Positions 656 to 42,439 of a stretch of DNA of 64,000 nt are shown here, in pieces. The notes below the pieces were generated by a model. That model saw nothing but the letters and a program-made list of their open reading frames with translations, searched no databases and was not told the DNA's origin. The number at the start of each line of letters is the position of its first letter. Position 1 is the first letter of the stretch. Source of the stretch: Branchiostoma floridae. Taxonomy: Eukaryota; Chordata; Leptocardii; Amphioxiformes; Branchiostomatidae. The stretch spans positions 288,962 through 352,961 of the forward strand of contig NC_049983.1 of NCBI RefSeq assembly GCF_000003815.2. Reading direction: 5' to 3'. Made by a program: the position numbers and the translations under genes.

Positions 656-3600
656 ATCAGCGGCCCCCCACAATGGCTTCACCATCGTGAACAGACTGAG
701 TATGAACAACCTGACGGAGCCGATCACCAAAGACCTGGAGTTCCAGCTACAGGACCCCTTCCTGCTCTACAGAAATGCACAACGTACGTATTATTTATTC
801 TTGGCCTCCAGTATACAGTATTGTAATAATCTTATAACAGTGCCCTATCCCAATCAGGTTTTGCACCCCTGGAGAAAAGCATAAAGTTTGAAAGGTCACT
901 AGGGGTGGCTACCGGTTTAGAAAATTCAGGTCCGGTTCAGGTCCAAAGGATTAGGTCCAGGTCCGGACCTGAACCTGGACCTGATTCAGTATGACTCATA
1001 CCAATGGTCCATTTCACTACAAAGAAGTCTGTTTGGTGGAGTATTAGACTTAAACTGGCGTTTTAAAATCAACACTAGAGTCCATTCCAAGACACCATGC
1101 GGATGTTTGTGGCCATTGTTTAGAATTGATTTTAAAGTTTTGTAATTATATGTCTAGGACATTTGATACTTCAGAAATATTTGCAACAATGTTTCAACTT
1201 TATAAATATTTCCCTGGTCCTGTAAAACTTTGGAAATATTCATCGTGTGGAATTGGATACTTCTAATGGTTTCTAAATAATGATAACAGCATTCTACCAT
1301 TATCTACCATTTTCTACCATTTTTTGTAAATGGTTCAGTGGGCTGGGAAGATAGCTATTCACACATCGTTGCAAAGTATGGTTGGGTGCCATGAAACAAT
1401 GGCCCACCACAAAGGATCCACCAGTGAAATCTAAAAATATACAGATACAACAATAGGGCTTACTTTTATGGGGGCAATAAACTAATTTAACCATTTGGCG
1501 AGGTTTACTATTTTTTGTAAATATTTGTAAATGTGAAATAATCACACAGAGGTTTCACAATTATTCTAAATAAAGATATTTTTGTACAGTTACTTTCAAA
1601 ATGTTTCTAAAATATTCAAAGGAATTCAAATATATGAGTACTTTCTCAGTCAAATTTTTAAAAATAATTTAATTATTGTGGCTCAGATATTCTTTTATTC
1701 AAAATAATTCAGACTAATTATAAATATCGCCTAAAAACCCTCATGGTGTCTTGGAATGGACTCTAACTGCACAACTAAATTTGGTAGAAATTACTATAAA
1801 CTCTACTCTACTTCACTCTTGTTATTTTCCACTACCTGCAAGCGCCAAAACGTGTGACTGCCTGATAAAATAATCTGTTAATTTTGTAATCGGTCCAACA
1901 TCCGGTCCACCTAATTTTTTTAGGTCTGGTTTTTCTGGACCGGTCCAGTAAAAAAAAACGGTTTCGTGCCGGTACGCTGTACCGATACCCCTAAAAGTCA
2001 CTATTCAATTCCAAAGGGACATTCTTATATTCACCTTGTATCATTACATTAATTTTGAAGCCAAACATAGTAGGAAACGTTAACAATTGGTAACCTCGTA
2101 TCATAAAGAACGGGACGTTCTGCTGCAGTACTTTAACAAGCCACTTGGGGGCCCAAATTCTGCAATTGTTTCAAGGCCTTGTTAAGACCTAGTACTCAAA
2201 TACAACGTATCAAGACAATCCATTCAGCCATTCTAGAATTATCATGTTCACAGACACACACACACGCAAATGCTGCTGAAAACAAAACCTTCTTTACGGA
2301 GGTTAAGAGTAATGTCGAACACATATCAAAGAGACAGTACATTGGGCAAGTAGGTCAACTTACTTAGCACCTCCATGTTTTATTCTATTCATCAGCCAGT
2401 CTTCATATAATACAATTTGGTCTACATGCCTGATTTATAGGGTTGGACACTATTTCAGCAAAGACAAACTCTAAGACGATTTTTGACATCACAAGAGTGT
2501 CTCTATATAGGGGCTAGGGAAAAAAATTTGTATTCAATGACATGGTTATTTGATCTACCGTAGCAAAAAACTTCGGATGCTACCAATGCAAGGGACATAA
2601 GATTTCCGACTTAACTTTGACTTGAAAAATGTTCTCCATAATAGAAAAAGGGGCTATAATTATCATAAACCAGTAAAACAGACCCGCTGAGCATAGTCTC
2701 CTTTCTTATGATGCTCAATTTAACAGGAAAAATCAAAATACGCTGTTGAAAATACCAATGATCCTTCTTGAGTTTCACACTGTCAAACTGTTTTGCTTGA
2801 TCACCTTGGCCGCAATCTAAAGAAAATAGTTTTTAAAAAGAGAAAATCCCTACCTACCAGCCCAATCTATTTCAGTGACACAATCCTAAGCAAAAAAAAA
2901 GTTTTTTGTTCAGCCTAGCCAGTAGCCTGTTATGACTAAGGCCCAATCTACACACAGTTTTTACCGATATCTGTGGAGATGTCGGGAGGGATCTAGAACG
3001 TAGGGGGCCGGACACCCATGGCGCTTGCAGTCATAAACATATAGCAAGATTTTCCAAATGGCGTTATATGCTAATGAGCCTTCCCGAAGTCGGGAAGCAT
3101 GTACAAGTGTGCGAAGCTGTCGGGGACCCTGCTAAGCTATCGGTAAAGTATCGTACGAATGGTCCGGACCTTTCGGGAGAAATTTTCCCGATATCTTGAC
3201 GGCGATATTGCAGTTCCATCTAGACGCTGAAAAAAAGCTGTCGGCGAGAGGTTGTTGGCTCGCCGATATCGGGAAAAACCGTGTCTAGATCGTGCCTAAG
3301 ACAAGTTGTAATCATCACCAAACTAGGTCAGCTTTTCATCCCAGAATTGCGGCCCTGCATGACAAACGATCGACAGAAGAGATGAACTGATGAATTGACG
3401 GATGAGTTATGCCCGGGCCGGACTCTGTCAATACAATTTTGCCATCGCGTATCGACCGGGAACTGCGACCGAGCGGCCAGCCACGTAATATATGATCATG
3501 AGATCATTGATATGATTAAACGCTGGGTGATATAATGTCTTGACAATACCGATCTTCCGCCGTCTTCTAACATCCTGAAATTNNNNNNNNNNNNNNNNNN

Positions 3601-6600
3601 NNNNNNNNNNNNNNNNNNNNNNNNNNNNNNNNNNNNNNNNNNNNNNNNNNNNNNNNNNNNNNNNNNNNNNNNNNNNNNNNNNCAATGAGTATTTGTATAA
3701 GAGGAATGAACTGAATGACCAGTTTATATTTTTATCATTATATAAAGGACTTTCCTACAGTTAGTAGTTTGCTAGAGTTTATTGTTGAACTTGAAGGCTA
3801 AGCGTAAAACACTGTGACATTTAAAGGTATGTATTATTGTAGTATTTGTGTTGGATTGTGGGAGGTTGTGTTGCATAACTTCAGGGTGTTTGGCCCATAA
3901 TCTAAAGGTCCCTTGTTGGAATCCCGTCATGCTATCTTGTGCCCTTGGGATCAGCACGAGACAAGTACTTAACACACAGGGCTCGAAATTCATTTGGGGG
4001 ATTAGCTGCACTGGTGCACCCAGCTTAAAAAATTGGGTGCACCAAAAAATTTTGGGCGCACCACTTAAATTTAAGTAGAATGTCAGACAAAAATAATAAC
4101 AAAACTTAGTTACAACCTATCAAATTCTTAAACAAGTACCATGACAGACATTTTTATTATCTTTCTAACACTTAGATGTCAGGAATATGATGTATACTAG
4201 TATACTTGATATCTTTACATACATAAACCTAAGAAAATATTTGGGTACACCCTGTGCACCCACTGAAAAAAATTGGGTCCACAGTTCCAATTTTGCGTGC
4301 ACCTGGGTGCGCATGCACCCAGTATTTCGAGTCCTGACACAACTTTCCTCACTCCACCCGGGTGTAAAAATGGGTGCTTAACTTTGGTTGGGGAGGTAGA
4401 GGCAGGGGGAACAGAGGGTAACAATGGGCTCCGCCTTGCCCAAGACTACCCACTACCTCTAAGGTCTTAAAAAGATTATGGGACTACTTTTTTATTGGGA
4501 GAATTTTGGTTCCCAAAAGACTCCAAATATTCTTAATGTTAAGTCTCCATTCAGATTGACATTAATTTTGTAACTTATTTTCAACATTTTTCTGTCATTC
4601 AATTGGGAAGTGCCCATATTTCAAGACATTCTAACGGCACAACTAAGTCACATTTGTAAATATCTCTGTGCAGTAATCGTGAAAACAAAGGCATTGCTTT
4701 TGGTCATTTTTCTTCATTATAAGTTGAATCATTCTACCTATAATTACTATAATTATTAGGTAGAATGAAGAAAAATGACCAAAAACACTAACTTTGTTTT
4801 CACGTTTTGATCGCTCCTATACTACAGTACAATACCTTAAAACCGTCATGCCACGCTGGCATAAGCCGTAACTGACTTGCGTATGAATCATGAAGTAAAG
4901 TACCCCATAGAAGGCCATGTATATCAATATAGATGGGGTACAGGATTTAATTAGGACTTTATGGAAAGCGTCCATGACTGTGCTGTTACTAATCGTGTTG
5001 GTAAGGTAAGTAGTGGGCAAGTAAGGAGGATTGAACGAAACAAAATAAACCATACTGATACAAGATACATTGTAGACAGATACACTTATCGGATCATGGT
5101 AAGATGCGCAACTCAAATGTCTGGGCATATTTATATTTAGTATCATTATTATGATAATGATGTCTTTTATCAGTATCCACTAAATGTCAAATCATTGTGG
5201 CCATTGGTTTCCAGTCGATATCCTTTTGAGAATTGGTATGTGGCTGGAAAAAAACATTGCTGGGTGTCATGTGAAGTCGCATGGCCCAGCGGCGGCATTT
5301 GTGCCTCGTGACCGAGAGGTCGCGGGTTCAAATCCGGCTGCGTGTCACCGATCTTGTGCCCTTTGGAAAGGCACTTTACACTGCTTTCCTCACTATACTC
5401 AGGTGTAAATGAGTACCTAGCTTCGGCTAGGGCCGTCCCTCGGATACGACGTTAAATGGAGGTCCCGTGTATGGGGAGAGCCACACCCCATGCACGTTAT
5501 AGAACCCCCACACGTGCGATGGTGCGGTGTGAGATGGAGCAAACCCTTCTGTCTGGAGTTGGTGATTCACTTCAAATCATCCCCGTCTTGTAATTAACCA
5601 GCGAAAGGGTATGTCACCCCGTAAGGGGCGGTATAACCCCGCCGTGTGTTAACATTTGCGAACATGTGTGTATGGTGGCTTTGAAGAGGTGACCTTTGAC
5701 ACCTGTTTTGCCATACCCTCCATTGTCATCGTATATGGAGAATCCTAATAAATAAATAAAGGGGTGAACTAAGATTAGAGCTGTGTGTTTCGAGTTCCTC
5801 ATGCCATTCAAATCTTGGAAGACATTTTGTTAAAATGTTTGATGAGTATTCCCTTTGTATTTCAATTAGACAGAAGTGGGTAGAGCAAGTTGACCCGCAC
5901 ACCTCAGGTCCCAGCTCAGTTGTCCATGTGTTTTTACCTTTCTCTACTAACATTGCTGGGTGTCATCTTATCATAATGATTTTGAACTTTCATAATGATC
6001 GTAATTTTTGGTAGATATTCATCAAAGGCTTGGCTTATAATCATCTGGTATATAGTTTATAGTTATACTTTATTAGTTATGCCAAAAATTTGAATTGAGC
6101 ACAACAATATATTATCTCCCTCAGAATGTATTGATCCCCTTGCATACATACATTGTACATGACGTGTACAGAGGCCCCTTTTGAATTGATATACAGTTAT
6201 ATAATATATACAGTAAATGATTACTAAAAATGAAACTGTTGTGATATACATATGTTATAATGTCCTTTGGGACCAAGAACAATGGCAATATTTTGCTGCA
6301 AAAAACCTAATAAAATACTTGATAGAACAGGTCTATGAGTTGAATGAAACAAAATTCACACCTGACACGTACTATGTATACGTGGTACCTAATTGATATT
6401 GTAATACATACTGCATGAGCAAATATTAACATTACATAGTATACGATGCTTCGTAATTTTATGCCCCAACATGCATGCCTCGGGTACGCACTTCCCTTCC
6501 CAAATCCATTTACCGGCCCGTTATGAATGAATGTAAGGTGGTTACATAAGAGCGCGGAGAATTACTTCCCTCGCGCTGGACTCTCTCCAGGGCCCTGTCG

Positions 6601-35589: not shown

Positions 35590-36105
35590 ACGCACACGCT
35601 TCACCAAGGCTCCAAAGAACTTGAAACGCCCTGGATACAAAGGAGGCTGACAGAAGAAGGAAGAGACGTGAACCATGTCAAACAATGGAATTATGCTGTG
35701 AGACCTGCGGAAATCAGGCATAAGGCTGTCGATGCCATGATAAGACTTAGTAGACTAAAGTGGTTCGGACATGTAGTAAGTCCACAAAGCCTATGCTACA
35801 AGGAGTTTCAAAAGACAAGGCCGCGGGATCGAGACCTCCGAAGCACTGGAAGGATCAAATTGCAAAGGATACTGGTCGGGAGTCTCAAGTTTGCGGAGAC
35901 AAGTACAAAGGACCGTGCAACCTGGAGAATTCTAACGGAGAGGAGCAAGGGTCCAGTCCCTGGCCTAGGCACTAAGGCAGGTAGGCCAGACCTGTGGACG
36001 AGCCGGCCTTGCTGCACACAGACGGGCCCATCGGCGGTGAACAGAGCGTCCGTCATGACGAAAAGGACTGAACATTATGTGAGGAGAATGTGATGGTGAC
36101 GTATA
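35590..36105 (+). pseudogene. Decayed C-terminal end of a LINE reverse transcriptase
   Basis: Fragments in two frames recall the end of a LINE RT: TPWIQRRLTEEGRDV and IRLSRLKWFGHV in one frame, then GSRPPKHWKDQIAKDTG in the next. The frame change near 35800 shows it is broken. The sequence just downstream (36105-36262) recurs as the host of the 4.5-kb transposon insertion and may be the 3' part of the same retroelement family. Confidence 0.6.
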
Positions 36106-36636
36106 AACTAGATGTTGTGATAATGCATTCCAATCTATGAATGTATTGGGGAAGCAGTCCCTTCTGAACGTTTCTGTCTTGTAAAGGAATGTGATATAAT
36201 GTTGGCATTTTTGTAAGGATATTGCGTGTCTAATATCAATTAGCTTTGGCAAAGATGTTCAAAATGAAATAGAAATTTTGCAAAATAAGAGGTAATTTGC
36301 ATTCTTATAGAATATTCTATTATAAGTGTTTTTAATGTATCCATTGTTCCGGTCTTGATACGGTCTTGACATTTGGGTGGCGGGTAGCTTTTGACGTCAG
36401 GACAAGGTTGGGCATGTTTCAGCCCCCTAACATTGAATGTTGGAACTGCAGGGGGATTTTGTCAAAACATTCCAAAGAGGATAACTGAAGAAAGGACACA
36501 TATACTAGGTGTTGTTGTAATGCACTCCAATCTATGACTGTATTCTCGGCTTTCAGTCACGTGATCTGACCTTAGCAACGGTTGCTATCCGCCATCTTTG
36601 TGACCATGCGTAGCGTCCCCTACGCCGGTTCTAGCG

Positions 36637-37218
36637 ATGGTTCTTTGTCGGCTGTGGATCGAGAACCGATGGAAAATACAGGGAGAAGATTTCATTTTTT
36701 TCTGTACCTAAAGTAGTTAAGGAGTGGAACACGAGAAGCTCACTCAAGAACGCCGGAGGTTGTGGATTTCGGCGATCAGCCGCGGAGACACGACAACAAA
36801 AAACATTCTTGAAACCGAGCGGGTATGTGGTCGTCATTTTGTTTCTGGGAATGCTGCCCCTGTATGGGATAGACACAATGTTGACTGGGTTCCCACTCTC
36901 AACCTTGGAAGGAAAGACTACATAGAAGAAGGGACAAAGGAAAAGCTACAGAAGACGGCAGAAGAGAGGGCTGAACGGGCTAAAGAGCGCACAAAGCGAG
37001 TCGCTGAACAACGGGTAGAGGCTGCAGCAAAGAGGACACCGCAAAATCCTACTGGGTACCGTTTGCAAGATATCGATTTGACCAAAGTTGAAGATGTGCC
37101 GCTAGACGTGGAAATGGCTAACTTAGCGATATCAAGTGAGGAGCCAGTGCCGGCTGAAACACAGACAACTGAGTTGCCGAATGTGTTGAGCAGCAAGCAA
37201 TTACTTCCTGCTTGGTGA
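36637..37218 (+). pseudogene. THAP zinc-finger protein of the transposon (frameshifted N-terminus)
   Basis: THAP domains are Cys2CysHis DNA-binding fingers found in animal proteins and several DNA transposases. The open frame from 36724 reads [13 protein letters not shown], then VCGRHFVSG (the C-x2-H-F hallmark) and [11 protein letters not shown]. The start of the finger is in another frame just upstream (CGSRTDGK and [12 protein letters not shown] at about 36650-36720), so at least one and probably two indels break the domain. After the finger comes a charged helix ([16 protein letters not shown]) and an acidic C-terminal tail ending at TGA 37216-37218. It may be decayed or hold sequencing errors. 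Its role in the intact element would be binding the transposon ends. Confidence 0.65.
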
Positions 37219-37559
37219 GGTTTGGTAAGAAAATGCTTGAATGTTGAGCAAAAAATAATACTGCCTGGTTGAACACTACTTTATACTAGTATCAATGAGA
37301 TGATAATTGGCTGCTGGGTGTGCTATGGCATGTATATGGACCTGTGATGAATAAAAGATTTACTCAGTACAATTTTTGCAAGACTCAATATTTGTTTGAA
37401 GACAAGAAAACAGTTTATTCAATGGTAGATACTTAGGACACTAATGTTAAGCATCTATGTGTTAACTGCTGACATCAAGAAATTACAGCAAACTAGTAGA
37501 ATGACAAACAGTACAAAATCAATGTCAGTATCTGGCAACTCTAATCATAATGTCTTTCA

Positions 37560-38080
37560 AAATAAGTTCTAGCTGGTGTAGTGAATAAAATAAGTTCTAG
37601 CCAGTCAGTGTGGTTAGACAGTAATACAACTGACGAGAAAATATGCTCTAGCTAGTCAGTGTAGTTACACAGTACTAGTAATACAGTTGGCAGACTTGAG
37701 AATAAATAAGTTCTAGCCAGTGTAGTTACACAGTAATACAGATGAAAAAATTATATAAAAGAAATATGCTCTAGCTAGTCAGTGTAGTTACACAGTAATA
37801 CAACTGACAAATTTATATAAAAGAAATATGCTCTAGCTAGTCAGTGTAGTTACACAGTACTAGTAATACAGTTGGCAGACTTAAGCATAAATAAGTTCTA
37901 GCCAGTGTAGTTACACAGTAATACAGATGACTTAATTTATAAAGAAAATATTAGCTCTAGCTAGTCAGTTTAGTTACGTCAGTGTAGTTACACAGTAATT
38001 CAACTGACAAAAATTTATATAAAGGAAATATGCTCTAGCTAGTCAGTGTAGTTACACAGCTTATGTTATACTATTCTTAT
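37560..38080. repeat. Tandem repeats of about 80-100 bp inside the transposon
   Basis: Words GCTCTAGCTAGTCAGTGTAG, TTACACAGTAATACA and AAGTTCTAGCCAGTGTAG alternate through about seven diverged units with AATTTATATAAAAG spacers. No coding frame. Confidence 0.75.
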
Positions 38081-38676
38081 AATGTTACAGTTGACAGATT
38101 TATAAAATCACAGGATAACAAGTGGCAGGGCGTATAGGAGCATCTTACACATCAAACATGTAAAACCAATGGCAACATTTGCAGTGGCAGAAGTTTTGCA
38201 GAAAAAAAGGTCCTGCTCTATGGCTGGCAGTGCAGGGTAAGCAGAGAAACCTCACCTAGTCCCAAACAAGCCCGACTGAACCTACCATATGGGCAATCAG
38301 AATTGCTACATGTGACATCATCTTGACTCATCTGTTCCCGTCAAAGACAGATTGCATTTGAGTCAGGGACCTTCACTGGCACATCACATTTTCCTTGTGT
38401 TCCAGCGGCCGAGAATCTCACAGAATGCAAATCCTCCAAAATGCTTGCAGTTTGAACAGAACCATCTTTGAGTGTTCTGGGTCAGGTTTGATTCTGTCAC
38501 AGACTATTAGTGGGCATTCCCATTCTGGTCCCATGCAGATACTACAAAATCACAATACCTATTTCCTCTCTGTTAGAACAAACAATTGCTGCTGAACATG
38601 ATGGTAGTAGTTGCGGGCTCTCTTAAAGTTAAATACCCCAATTACCTTTTCCAGACATGAACTCTTGTTATGGACA

Positions 38677-39225
38677 TCACTTGTCAAAGCTACCGTCAGG
38701 TACAGAAATCGGACATTTTATCTCCCCACATCCCATCCCACAGCAATCACATGATACAAGAAAGTCAGGGGTCGCATGGAGGCAAGGGTGTTCTTTACAT
38801 ATGAAGAGACTGCACTTCTTAACCTGGAAGTTGACATGGTTGGGCTTCATGCATGTCTCATACACTTTGATGGCAGCCTCTTCCATCTTACTTACATACG
38901 TGATACCTTGTGGCCCTTGTGTCTACCTTATACAGGTGTGATTAGCATATAGCCTTAACTATTGACTGAGGAGGCTGTCCTAGGTTGCTGTGATACACTG
39001 CCCCACTAATAGATGCCCCTATACGCCCTGCTCTGTGGCGGAAAAAGCCAGGACCTTTAGCTTGTGTCCTTGTGTTTTTTCAACAGTTTTGATATGACTA
39101 TCTGACATGTCAACATTAACATCTAAACATTTGTGCAGGAGTTCATGGTGCTGGAGGTCGAGGTTGTTTGGATCGAACAAATCCGACACAACAGGGATGT
39201 CTTGACTTGGCAAACTCGCCTGCAT
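38677..39225 (-). pseudogene. YqaJ-type exonuclease relic of the transposon
   Basis: YqaJ-family proteins are PD-(D/E)XK nucleases related to lambda exonuclease, known from phages and from repeated genes in invertebrate genomes. Reading the minus strand, the first piece (39225-39019) has DIPVVSDLFDPNNLDLQHHE and HIKTVEK, typical of the lead-in. The next piece, in another frame, has FFRHRAGRIGAS and QSIVKAIC followed by an in-frame TAA, then VDTRATRY. The last piece (38886-38677) has [15 protein letters not shown]-like [17 protein letters not shown] and [12 protein letters not shown]. The catalytic region TPDx to EIK is recognisable. Two or more frameshifts and a stop make it a pseudogene. Further N-terminal sequence is not seen. 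Confidence 0.72.
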
Positions 39226-39294
39226 ATGGAGGAATCAAACTTAGTGCCACTACTTTAACTTTGCACTTACTGAGCTTACTGTACACATATTTAC

Positions 39295-39645
39295 ATCTCT
39301 TGAGCAGTTGGGGTGTTGTTCTGTGGTACTGTAACCTTATCCTGAGCAGTTGGGGTGTTGTTCTGTGGTACTGTAACCTTGTCCTGAGCAGTAGGGGTGT
39401 TGTTCTGTGGTACTGTAACCTTGTCCTGAGCAGTTGGGGTGTTGTTCTGTGGTACTGTAACCTTGTCCTGAGCAGTAGGGGTGTTGTTCTGTGGTACTGT
39501 AACCTTGTCCTGAGCAGTAGGGGTGTTGTTCTGTGGTACTGTAACCTTGTCCTGAGCAGTTGGGGTGTTGTTCGGTGGTACTGTAACCTTGTCCTGAGCA
39601 GTAGGGGTGTTGTTCTGTGGTACTGTAGTCTTGTCCTGAGTTGTC
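39295..39645. repeat. 42-bp tandem repeat, about eight units
   Basis: Unit GAGCAGTTGGGGTGTTGTTC then TGTGGTACTGTAACCTTGTCCT, nearly identical from copy to copy. Forty-two is a multiple of three, so frames stay open on both strands. The minus-strand frame KVTVPQNNTPTAQD lies upstream of the exonuclease relic and could have been coding; the 219-codon plus-strand frame looks accidental. Confidence 0.9.
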
Positions 39646-40630
39646 AGATTACTCTTGTGTGTACTTGTGTTGTGTTGACAGTCACATGTGATGTGGGATT
39701 GAAGGAATCAATCTTCTTGTCAAGCTGTTCTTTCAGTTTCTTTGCTGATGTAAAATCAGTGTCTCTCACTCTTGCATACGGGACTTCCTTAATATATATT
39801 TATACGTGGGCAGAATCCAGGTACTAGTACACTTCACCTGTGTGCAAGCCAGCACTGGACTACTGGTACATTCTAATGGTATGGGTGGACAGCAACATCT
39901 TGATAGCTGGGACAATTACTCAGCACCTAAAGCACAGGGATACAGGAAGTTTCATTAGAATGACAGACTAAACATCACTTTACACAATATAAATGCTAAA
40001 AATAGTTCACATACAGTCATGGGACCCAGAAGGCACATTGAGCTTTACTTTAAATGCCCTACAAAATATCACTGATCTTACTATTCTTAGCTTGGTCACC
40101 ATTACCCGCTAATCGGCATCCAGGGTGCTGAGGCACCGACCTGCTTGTGTTTTCGGGTGCGACGAAATCCAACCCAACCCCGTAAAAACTCCCCCGGCCT
40201 GCGCTAATAACTGGGCGGGCCGGCTACCCCTAAGGCGCCGAAGAGATCACGGCGAGCGCCCCGATGGTATGGTTAACAGGCTAACTATCAAAAATAACCA
40301 TGAAAAAATTACATTTCTGTCCACAATCGTCTCGATCCGTAAAATGTACGTCAAGTGGGATGTTATCCCGAAAAAGAAGATTCAAACTTTCGGGTAAATC
40401 TACAAAAAGAGACATTTCCGAACACGTAAATTAACGCTAACGTTACCCCCGTCCCCCACCCAACTTCGACGCTGGAAAACTAACTCTCAAATTATGCCGT
40501 CAAAGTTCCGTTTTTTTCATCCACAGTGATTACATGCCATCACGAGTAATCTTATGACTTTACACCGACAGGAGCAAGGAGATTCTATTTAACCTCCTCG
40601 ACAGGGAGTAGTAAATACCTGAACTGAAAG

Positions 40631-40730
40631 NNNNNNNNNNNNNNNNNNNNNNNNNNNNNNNNNNNNNNNNNNNNNNNNNNNNNNNNNNNNNNNNNNNNNN
40701 NNNNNNNNNNNNNNNNNNNNNNNNNNNNNN
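40631..40730. other. Assembly gap (100 N) inside the transposon
   Basis: Exactly 100 N. The true length and any coding content at this end of the transposon are unknown. Confidence 0.99.
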
Positions 40731-41086
40731 ACAAACCCCGCCCCCGCCCGGCTACCCGTCCATTTATCCGTTCAAAACTGGTATATGCAAGTCAACTAAC
40801 AGATATTGACTCTCAAACACCATAGCAATATTCTCCGTTCAATACAAGCACCAATATAGCTGTATGATTTATCATAAAGAAGCAAAACTTACCAATAAAA
40901 CTGAACTTCTGGCTCCATTGTCTTTGCTTGATGGTGCACCGCGTTCGCAAAAATGGAGCACAAAGATGGCGGATGCCCATATTTGGAAGCCCCGTGACGT
41001 CACGTGAAAGCCGAGAATTAGGGAAGTAGCTGCCTCTGAATGTTTCTGTCTTGCAATGTAATATGATGTCCTCTAGTCATTTGGTA

Positions 41087-41278
41087 CTGTAAATGCAGAA
41101 ATGTTCGCGGTGGATTAATGTTCGCGGTTTTCGCGGTGACCACTTCACCGCGAATTTAAAACCACCGCGAACATTTCTCTATTATGATATTAGATTGCAG
41201 TCTATGGTGTTACCGCCAACTTAAATCCACCGCGAAAAGTCCTTTTTCCTGCCACCGCGAACTTAAATACATTTACAG
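41087..41278. mobile_element. Tc1/mariner-type MITE (CTGTAAATG ends)
   Basis: Inverted ends CTGTAAATG and CATTTACAG are flanked by TA (41085-41086 and 41279-41280). Repeated CACCGCGAA/TTCGCGGTG words occupy the inside. The host sequence around it (GTCATTTGG, then TTCTTGTAAGGATATTGCGTG) is uninterrupted near 36210 (GGCATTTTTGTAAGGATATTGCGTG), which is an empty site. Confidence 0.8.
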
Positions 41279-42439
41279 TATTCTTGTAAGGATATTGCGT
41301 GTCTTTTTCAATTAAGAACTTCAAATCATTAGATTAAACTCCACATTTCATTTATTGGCAACAGCACCAGTATATTGTCAGTTAAGTCCATAAGTCCAGT
41401 CTTCACACCAGGATTCGGCCTGGAGCAAACTGTCCATTTCTCGCCTAGTTGCTTATGCACTTGTAATTTCTTGGATGTGTGTAATGGAAGCTGGTGGTAT
41501 GGTACGAATTGTGTTCATAAATTAACTTGACTTACGTAACTTAATATAACTTGCACAGTTAACGAAAACATCTGAGGACAGTTATATGGACTGACACGTG
41601 CTTTGAGTCTTTGCAAAACGGCATGTAAAATGTGTGTAACTCACAGGGCAGCATCTCTCTATGAAAGGGTCCACATTATTGTCTTCGTGGTCCTTGTACT
41701 GTCCTACTAGCGTCATCTAGCGGTTTCTGGTTGAAATAAAGTTAAAAGCTTTTCGTTTAGACATGATATTTGAGTGGGTAAGGAGCGCTGCCGGTGCCAG
41801 AAATACGGTTACCACAGGCCCGGCCCGACTGCATGTATCTTTGTACGTACGAGAGGCCGAAACTATAGGCTTCGTCCTTACTGGGAAAACAAACTTTCAA
41901 TCGCGGGGTTTAAGTATGAAATTCAAGTGATAAAAGTAACGTACAATTTGAAATCTTGACGCCATGACGTTTGAAAGTTACAATTTTACAGGGACAACAC
42001 TGACAAAGTAGCTTTCTAGATCCCCGACATTCCGGCTGACGCCCATTGTTTTAAAGCCTCGTGGAAAAGTATCTAAGTAATTTTTGTTCTGTCGAAGGGG
42101 TTTAGTTTGAAATTCAAGTCATAAAAGAAAGTAAAGAAAGTAATAACGCACACTTTGTAATCTTGACACCATGACTTATGAAATTTAAGAATATACAGTG
42201 ACAACGCTGAAAAGTAGCTTTCCAGATCCGCGACATTCGCCCATTGTTTTAAAGCCTTGTGGAGAAGTTACTAAGTAATTTTTGGCAGCCAAATGGCTTT
42301 CTACGTTGTTGTGATGGGTTCTAGTATGAGATTTAAGTGATAAAAGCATCGCACACTTTGTAATTTTGACGCCATGACGTATAAAAGTTAAGAATATACA
42401 TTGATATCACATATGTAATGAAAACTGAGCCAGATATAT

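Follow-up and report, generated by a model that had tools for sequence, protein, structure and literature searches.

A probable internally deleted ISL2EU-group transposon with THAP and YqaJ relics in the genome of Branchiostoma floridae

ISL2EU elements were described by Han et al. in 2015 (PMC4482050) as a group of the PHIS superfamily, occurring in animals only, with AT target-site duplications and a mean length of 4840 bp. Two open reading frames (ORFs) are given there: ORF1 encodes a DDE transposase with helix-turn-helix (HTH) and THAP domains, ORF2 a YqaJ exonuclease, the role of which was called unknown. Terminal inverted repeats usually start with GG in that account, and the target A|AT|T was inferred from conserved flanking bases. 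The two-ORF description was repeated in PMC9179366 (2022); in its account ISL2EU was undetected in amphioxus, though Han et al. had listed it there. Here we describe an insertion of 4473 bp in a stretch of 64,000 nucleotides from the amphioxus Branchiostoma floridae (NC_049983.1, positions 288,962 to 352,961; this whole stretch is called the window). Judged by its domain content and its AT duplication against the published description, the insertion is very probably a non-autonomous, internally deleted copy of the ISL2EU group (PHIS). A first-pass annotation, made from the sequence of the window, had put it forward as an undescribed mobile system; the element is, however, ordinary in kind, since the combination of THAP-DDE transposase, YqaJ exonuclease and AT duplication has already been published as ISL2EU (PMC4482050, PMC9179366).

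Two related groups differ in several respects. Spy elements (PHIS) have a related DDE transposase, but they insert into AAATTT without target duplication and contain a single ORF (PMC4482050), whereas AT is duplicated here and two genes are present. PIF/Harbinger elements belong to the same transposase superfamily and differ by their target duplication, TWA with 3 bp, and by a partner protein of the Myb/SANT kind, in place of AT and YqaJ.

Ends and target site of the insertion

The inverted ends of about 60 bp which had been noticed at first are real, yet bipartite and imperfect. The best local alignment of end to end comprised 65 columns, the outermost two being the duplicated AT; it contained an exact outer block of 12 bases and an exact inner block of 16 bases (ATCCGCCATCTTTGTG), and the middle matched poorly. 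The inverted-end score for the outer 100 bp was 40, compared to a maximum of 25 among 2000 mononucleotide shuffles. The bounds 36543..41017 given in the first-pass annotation were nearly right, starting one base too early and ending one base too late (Table 1).

The left flank of the insertion ends with ...CTGTAT, and the right flank starts with ATTAGGG.... Two empty copies of the host repeat were present, one in the window (36098-36210) and one on contig C18, which was found by using the joined flanks; such uninterrupted copies show the insertion as a unit, as had been stated. Flanks joined with one AT scored 126 and 93 on the two empty copies, and lower values (116-120 and 87) were obtained when zero or two AT were included. 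Since one AT fits both empty sites best, the 2-bp AT has been duplicated and lies outside the element proper. To the right of the element, the host repeat is broken again at 41084-41279 by a foldback of about 200 bp (TACTGTAAATGCAGAAATGTTCGCGGTGG and its inverse), which is probably a separate miniature inverted-repeat transposable element (MITE).

Relics of two converging genes were found in the element, in agreement with the first reading of the sequence, and both frames are broken, so that this copy is indeed decayed. The longest open frame in the transposase relic (36721-37218, plus strand) matched Pfam THAP (E=6.1e-5; 24.1 bits, cut-off 23.9). On the minus strand, the match of 38677-38922 to Pfam YqaJ remained under the cut-off of 22 (E=6.7e-4, 20.4 bits); the call was secured by tblastn of a sibling ORF2, which matched over 38212-39213 with E=5.7e-72. 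This relic contains several stops and frame changes (13 stops within one 1005-bp ORF2 match) and the motif GEIKCP at about 38710-38727. A DDE-type transposase had not been seen in this copy, and tblastn of a 590-amino acid (aa) sibling transposase (E up to 0.01) matched residues 1-229 only, with the entire window as the target.

Sibling copies and the missing transposase domain

Copies were sought across the genome from which the window was taken (513 Mb, 431 contigs). With the left 158 bp as query at least 13 matches were obtained, with the right 158 bp at least 39. Type A comprises the window copy, L009, L010, L011 and L012, which are 98-100% alike over the 158-bp end queries and differ mutually by 0.3-1.8% over the first ~650 bases. 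Type B comprises L013, L014, L015 and L017, the first 62 bp of which match type A in 61 or 62 of 62 positions (61 for L014 against the window). The divergence of L014 and L017 from type A amounts to 13-14% of aligned bases across the first 650, to which 47-65 gap columns have to be added. Eight copies have two ends, four of type A (window, L010, L011 and L012) and the four of type B, and AT is present on both sides in all of them. Pairing of the ends was assumed for L012, where they are 13 kb apart with a 6.85-kb run of N, and for L017, where they are 16 kb apart with about 10 kb of extra sequence. AT also stands before the left end of L009, L016 and L020, of which only this end was found, and after the right end of L028, the only end found of that copy.

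L014 and L017 possess open frames of 590 aa and 561 aa on the plus strand, with THAP, HTH_Tnp_4 (7e-17) and DDE_Tnp_4 (3e-50 for L014, 2e-50 for L017) domains according to Pfam. The acidic residues D415, D490 and E537 were assigned by motif; their spacings of 74 and 46 are the same in proteins P0004 and P0006, which stem from two other families. A PDB sequence search with the transposase P0001 gave no match at E up to 0.1. By blastn, the window element and L014 were collinear up to position 655 and again from 657, with 1162 extra bases in L014 between them, which encode transposase residues 230-590 (linker, HTH_Tnp_4 and DDE_Tnp_4) and slightly beyond. The DDE part is present also in a distant relative, L021 (about 50% identical); the difference between the types is therefore a loss in A, not a gain in B.

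The left halves of all five A-type copies run through the deletion junction, and two more lesions are common to them: a frameshifting loss of 8 bp within the C-x4-C stretch of THAP (the first zinc-binding one) and, further along, a loss of 7 alignment columns. The A lineage thus spread after transposase loss, and the A-type copies are, as judged from their sequences, a non-autonomous deletion lineage.

The exonuclease partner had been considered a sign of a different mobilisation chemistry, i.e., movement by a THAP protein and a nuclease resembling lambda exonuclease, with no DDE transposase taking part. The lack of DDE sequence in the window copy, the junction shared by the other four A-type copies and the fact that the A lineage reached several loci in the deleted state would fit such a process. 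However, a DDE domain fused to THAP is present in siblings whose left end of 62 bp is almost unchanged, the A-type THAP frame is broken by the common lesions, and several stops occur in the YqaJ matches; neither protein can thus have driven the spread. The proposal fails because the THAP-fused DDE_Tnp_4 domain of the relatives has been deleted in this lineage, and we regard a DDE-free mechanism as very improbable.

THAP domains are found also in other groups, such as Kolobok and P elements, to one of which the element might be thought to belong. Kolobok elements duplicate TTAA; P elements duplicate 8 bp and have a P-type transposase. Here, AT was duplicated in 8/8 copies, neither TTAA nor 8 bp, DDE_Tnp_4 is the catalytic domain, accompanied by HTH_Tnp_4, and the YqaJ partner fits ISL2EU, so that membership in one of these groups has hardly any probability.

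The fuller element contains two convergent genes, one for a THAP-HTH-DDE transposase and one for a YqaJ exonuclease, to which a PHD-like stretch and an Ulp1-type protease domain are added in this lineage. The DDE transposase of an intact relative would bind both ends, with THAP and the conserved inner motif GCCATCTT as the probable contacts, would cut, and would insert the element at a staggered AT, for which T|AT|A is a frequent setting. A-type copies were presumably moved in trans by the transposase of such an intact relative; type B, or a lost full-length A element, is the likely source, since the ends of type B are nearly identical to those of type A.

Pairing of the two genes and the exonuclease protein

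In the genome-wide search at least 75 matches were obtained with the transposase query (74 of 199 candidates scored; 69 places, 61 past residue 300) and at least 79 with the ORF2 query (56 of 203 candidates scored). The pairing count took 46 ORF2 matches, 41 of which touch residues 230-400 and represent 28 places. A THAP/DDE relative was found within 13.5 kb, a limit chosen so as to include L017, at 22 of the 28 YqaJ-region places, and 21 of these 22 pairs are convergent; within 3 kb, 21 of 28 places are paired (20 of 21 convergent). By our own arithmetic, chance should yield about 0.1 pairs with the 13.5-kb limit. The 22 pairs are not independent events, because one family may be represented by several of the places. 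At L014 and L021 the match reaches no further than the margin of YqaJ, since the domain itself falls in an assembly gap. No transposase match was found nearby at six of the 28 places (one on C16, four on C6 and one on C9, which is L028). In L032, which is on C19, the pair (locus positions 2312-5371) is divergent instead of convergent, with a 44-bp exact inverted repeat outside of it.

These counts bear on the possibility that a shorter element owns the inverted ends, the THAP and YqaJ sequences being independent insertions or host pseudogenes. The decay of both frames, the tandem arrays and the gap which break up the element, and the 6/28 unpaired places could be cited for it. Yet the order end, THAP, opposite-strand ORF2, end recurs in four A-type and four B-type two-ended copies (L014 being included, though most of its YqaJ falls in an assembly gap), and diverged families likewise possess the two genes as a pair; this reading is extremely improbable. 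That THAP and YqaJ are parts of one transposon, as had been claimed, is borne out by the same layout within inverted ends in the sibling copies.

Among the other families, the main matches of L023, L024 and L029 show an identity of 99.0-99.6%. An HTH-DDE frame of 380 aa and a YqaJ frame of 476 aa are open in L023 and L024, where the THAP match lies upstream in a frame of its own; the transposase of L029 is interrupted by a gap. This looks like a young ISL2EU-like family. Its YqaJ protein also matches the viral alkaline exonuclease of Pfam (3.7e-8). Exact inverted end matches were clear for L021 and L022, and gave no recognisable ends for L026 and L031. Long inverted repeats were found at L025, L030 and L032; the pairs of L025 and L030 lie between exact ones of 236 and 340 bp, very long in comparison to the short ends of other ISL2EU-like families here. 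For L021-L024 and L029, AT was read at the ends (T|AT|A in four of five, T|AT|T in one), without empty sites and outside the 8/8 count. Of the weaker right-end matches, 19 (L033-L051) were fetched, all of which were excluded from the target-duplication count. The suggestion that such short matches are MITEs was rejected: 15 of the 19 (L033-L047, each a match of 49 bp) share an almost constant outer flank and are thus not independent insertions. In these, the 49-bp ISL2EU right end has been captured, at about position 200, inside another dispersed repeat and has spread along with it. In the remaining four (L048-L051) no second end was recognised.

In L013 the second gene is an open frame of 810 aa, probably incomplete at its N-terminus, which is read from the other strand than the transposase gene and converges with it. 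Pfam domains of this ORF2 were YqaJ (1.7e-11) and Peptidase_C48/Ulp1 (3.2e-6). A PDB sequence search yielded ING-type PHD fingers (7e-7) and a second PHD protein with a weak match at 539-591 (0.028); further matches in the PDB search with P0002 were a YqaJ-region entry (R354) and Ulp1-type entries. Visual inspection of the N-terminal region of ORF2 pointed to a SWIM-like stretch (CxC...CxH), clearest in P0005, which Pfam did not call. The PHD/Ulp1 tail was also matched in L021 and L022; no match was found in L023-L026, L029 and L030, and only short weak ones in L031 and L032. A count of three families with the tail was rejected, because L021 and L022, which agree by about 98% in most of the stretches that match, are one family, and the count is two. 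In the window copy the Ulp1 part of ORF2 is gone. The copy number of the 42-bp minisatellite within ORF2 differs among element copies (e.g., L010, at about 3960-4530 of the reverse complement of the locus).

Proteins with such domains have been described for Ginger1 (PMC2836005), in which a transposon protein carries Ulp1 and, in one family, also PHD. There the domains are located on an integrase-like transposase, whereas here they are on the ISL2EU exonuclease protein; Ginger1 is thus a precedent for the capture of such domains. Among the open-access papers listed, none on a YqaJ transposon protein with PHD, Ulp1 or SWIM was found, and novelty of the tail is not claimed. The putative role of the exonuclease would most likely be end processing or gap repair at the donor or target, a proposal in which we place about even confidence. 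It is conceivable, if rather doubtful, that a branch of ISL2EU with at least two families (type B, represented by L013 and L017/L027, and L021 with L022) has made the partner exonuclease one large protein of SWIM-like finger, YqaJ, one or two PHD-like stretches and Ulp1. If so, recognition of histone marks and removal of SUMO at the break by this protein could tie transposition to chromatin state and repair.

Table 1. Coordinates (window positions) of the insertion and its parts
Feature	Position	Strand	Size and remarks	Basis
Whole insertion	36544-41016		4473 bp; THAP relic on +, YqaJ relic on -	
Left AT target-site duplication	36542..36543			Flank reading and two empty paralogous sites
Left terminal inverted repeat	36544..36604	+	Outer 12 bp TCTCGGCTTTCA, inner ATCCGCCATCTTTGTG	
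N-terminal transposase relic	36583..37197	+	Residues 19-229	Pfam THAP, tblastn of P0001, alignment
Internal deletion junction	37198..37200		~1.16 kb lost	blastn of element against sibling copies
Irregular tandem array	37560..38059		Units of ~62 bp; sits where L013 has the 3' part of ORF2 (Ulp1)	
Broken ORF2 relic	38212..39852	-	Sibling residues 51-507; YqaJ region and first PHD stretch	
42-bp minisatellite within ORF2	39256..39717	-	14-aa repeat TAQDKVTVPQNNTP, expanded compared to L013	
Assembly gap within element	40631..40730		100 N	
Right terminal inverted repeat	40957..41016	-	Inverse of TCTCGGCTTTCA ends at 41016	
Right AT target-site duplication	41017..41018			Flank reading and empty-site comparison

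Placement and meaning

Compared with the published description of ISL2EU, the 2-bp AT duplication was found in the eight two-ended A and B copies and at the two empty sites for the window; an ORF1 with THAP, HTH and DDE is present in the siblings L014 and L017 and in L021; and a YqaJ ORF2 is present as a relic in the window and as an open frame in L013 and L023. The length of the window copy is near the published mean, although of ORF1 the THAP part and linker remain, with HTH and DDE missing, and most of the ORF2 tail is absent.

Several observations weigh against this placement. The ends of types A and B start with TC, and not with the GG usual in the published elements. Their flanks were T|AT|A in four of eight copies, A|AT|A in two and T|AT|T in two; the published A|AT|T was met in none. 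The left-end-only copy L018 is preceded by TT instead of AT. None of the A and B copies is free of gaps with both genes open: ORF2 of L014 (7151 bp as assembled) lies partly within 1530 N, ORF1 of L013 (8397 bp as assembled) is broken, and ORF2 of L017 is in two frames. PHD and Ulp1, of which PHD-like and Ulp1 sequences occur in ORF2 of two families here, are unmentioned in the main text of PMC4482050, and Pfam called no PHD in ORF2 of L013 at E up to 0.1.

The remaining interest is in the PHD-Ulp1 tail, present in at least two families, and in the T|AT|A flanks as opposed to the published A|AT|T; the tail on an exonuclease protein might be one point for follow-up by specialists. To account for the pairing of THAP and YqaJ, no novel chemistry of transposition has to be assumed; the case also shows how a derivative formed by deletion can pass for a new system. 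ISL2EU-like families are diverse, and in part apparently young, in amphioxus, where the survey of PMC9179366 reports detecting none, and their PHD-like and Ulp1 sequences hint, in a testable way, at a role of the second gene.

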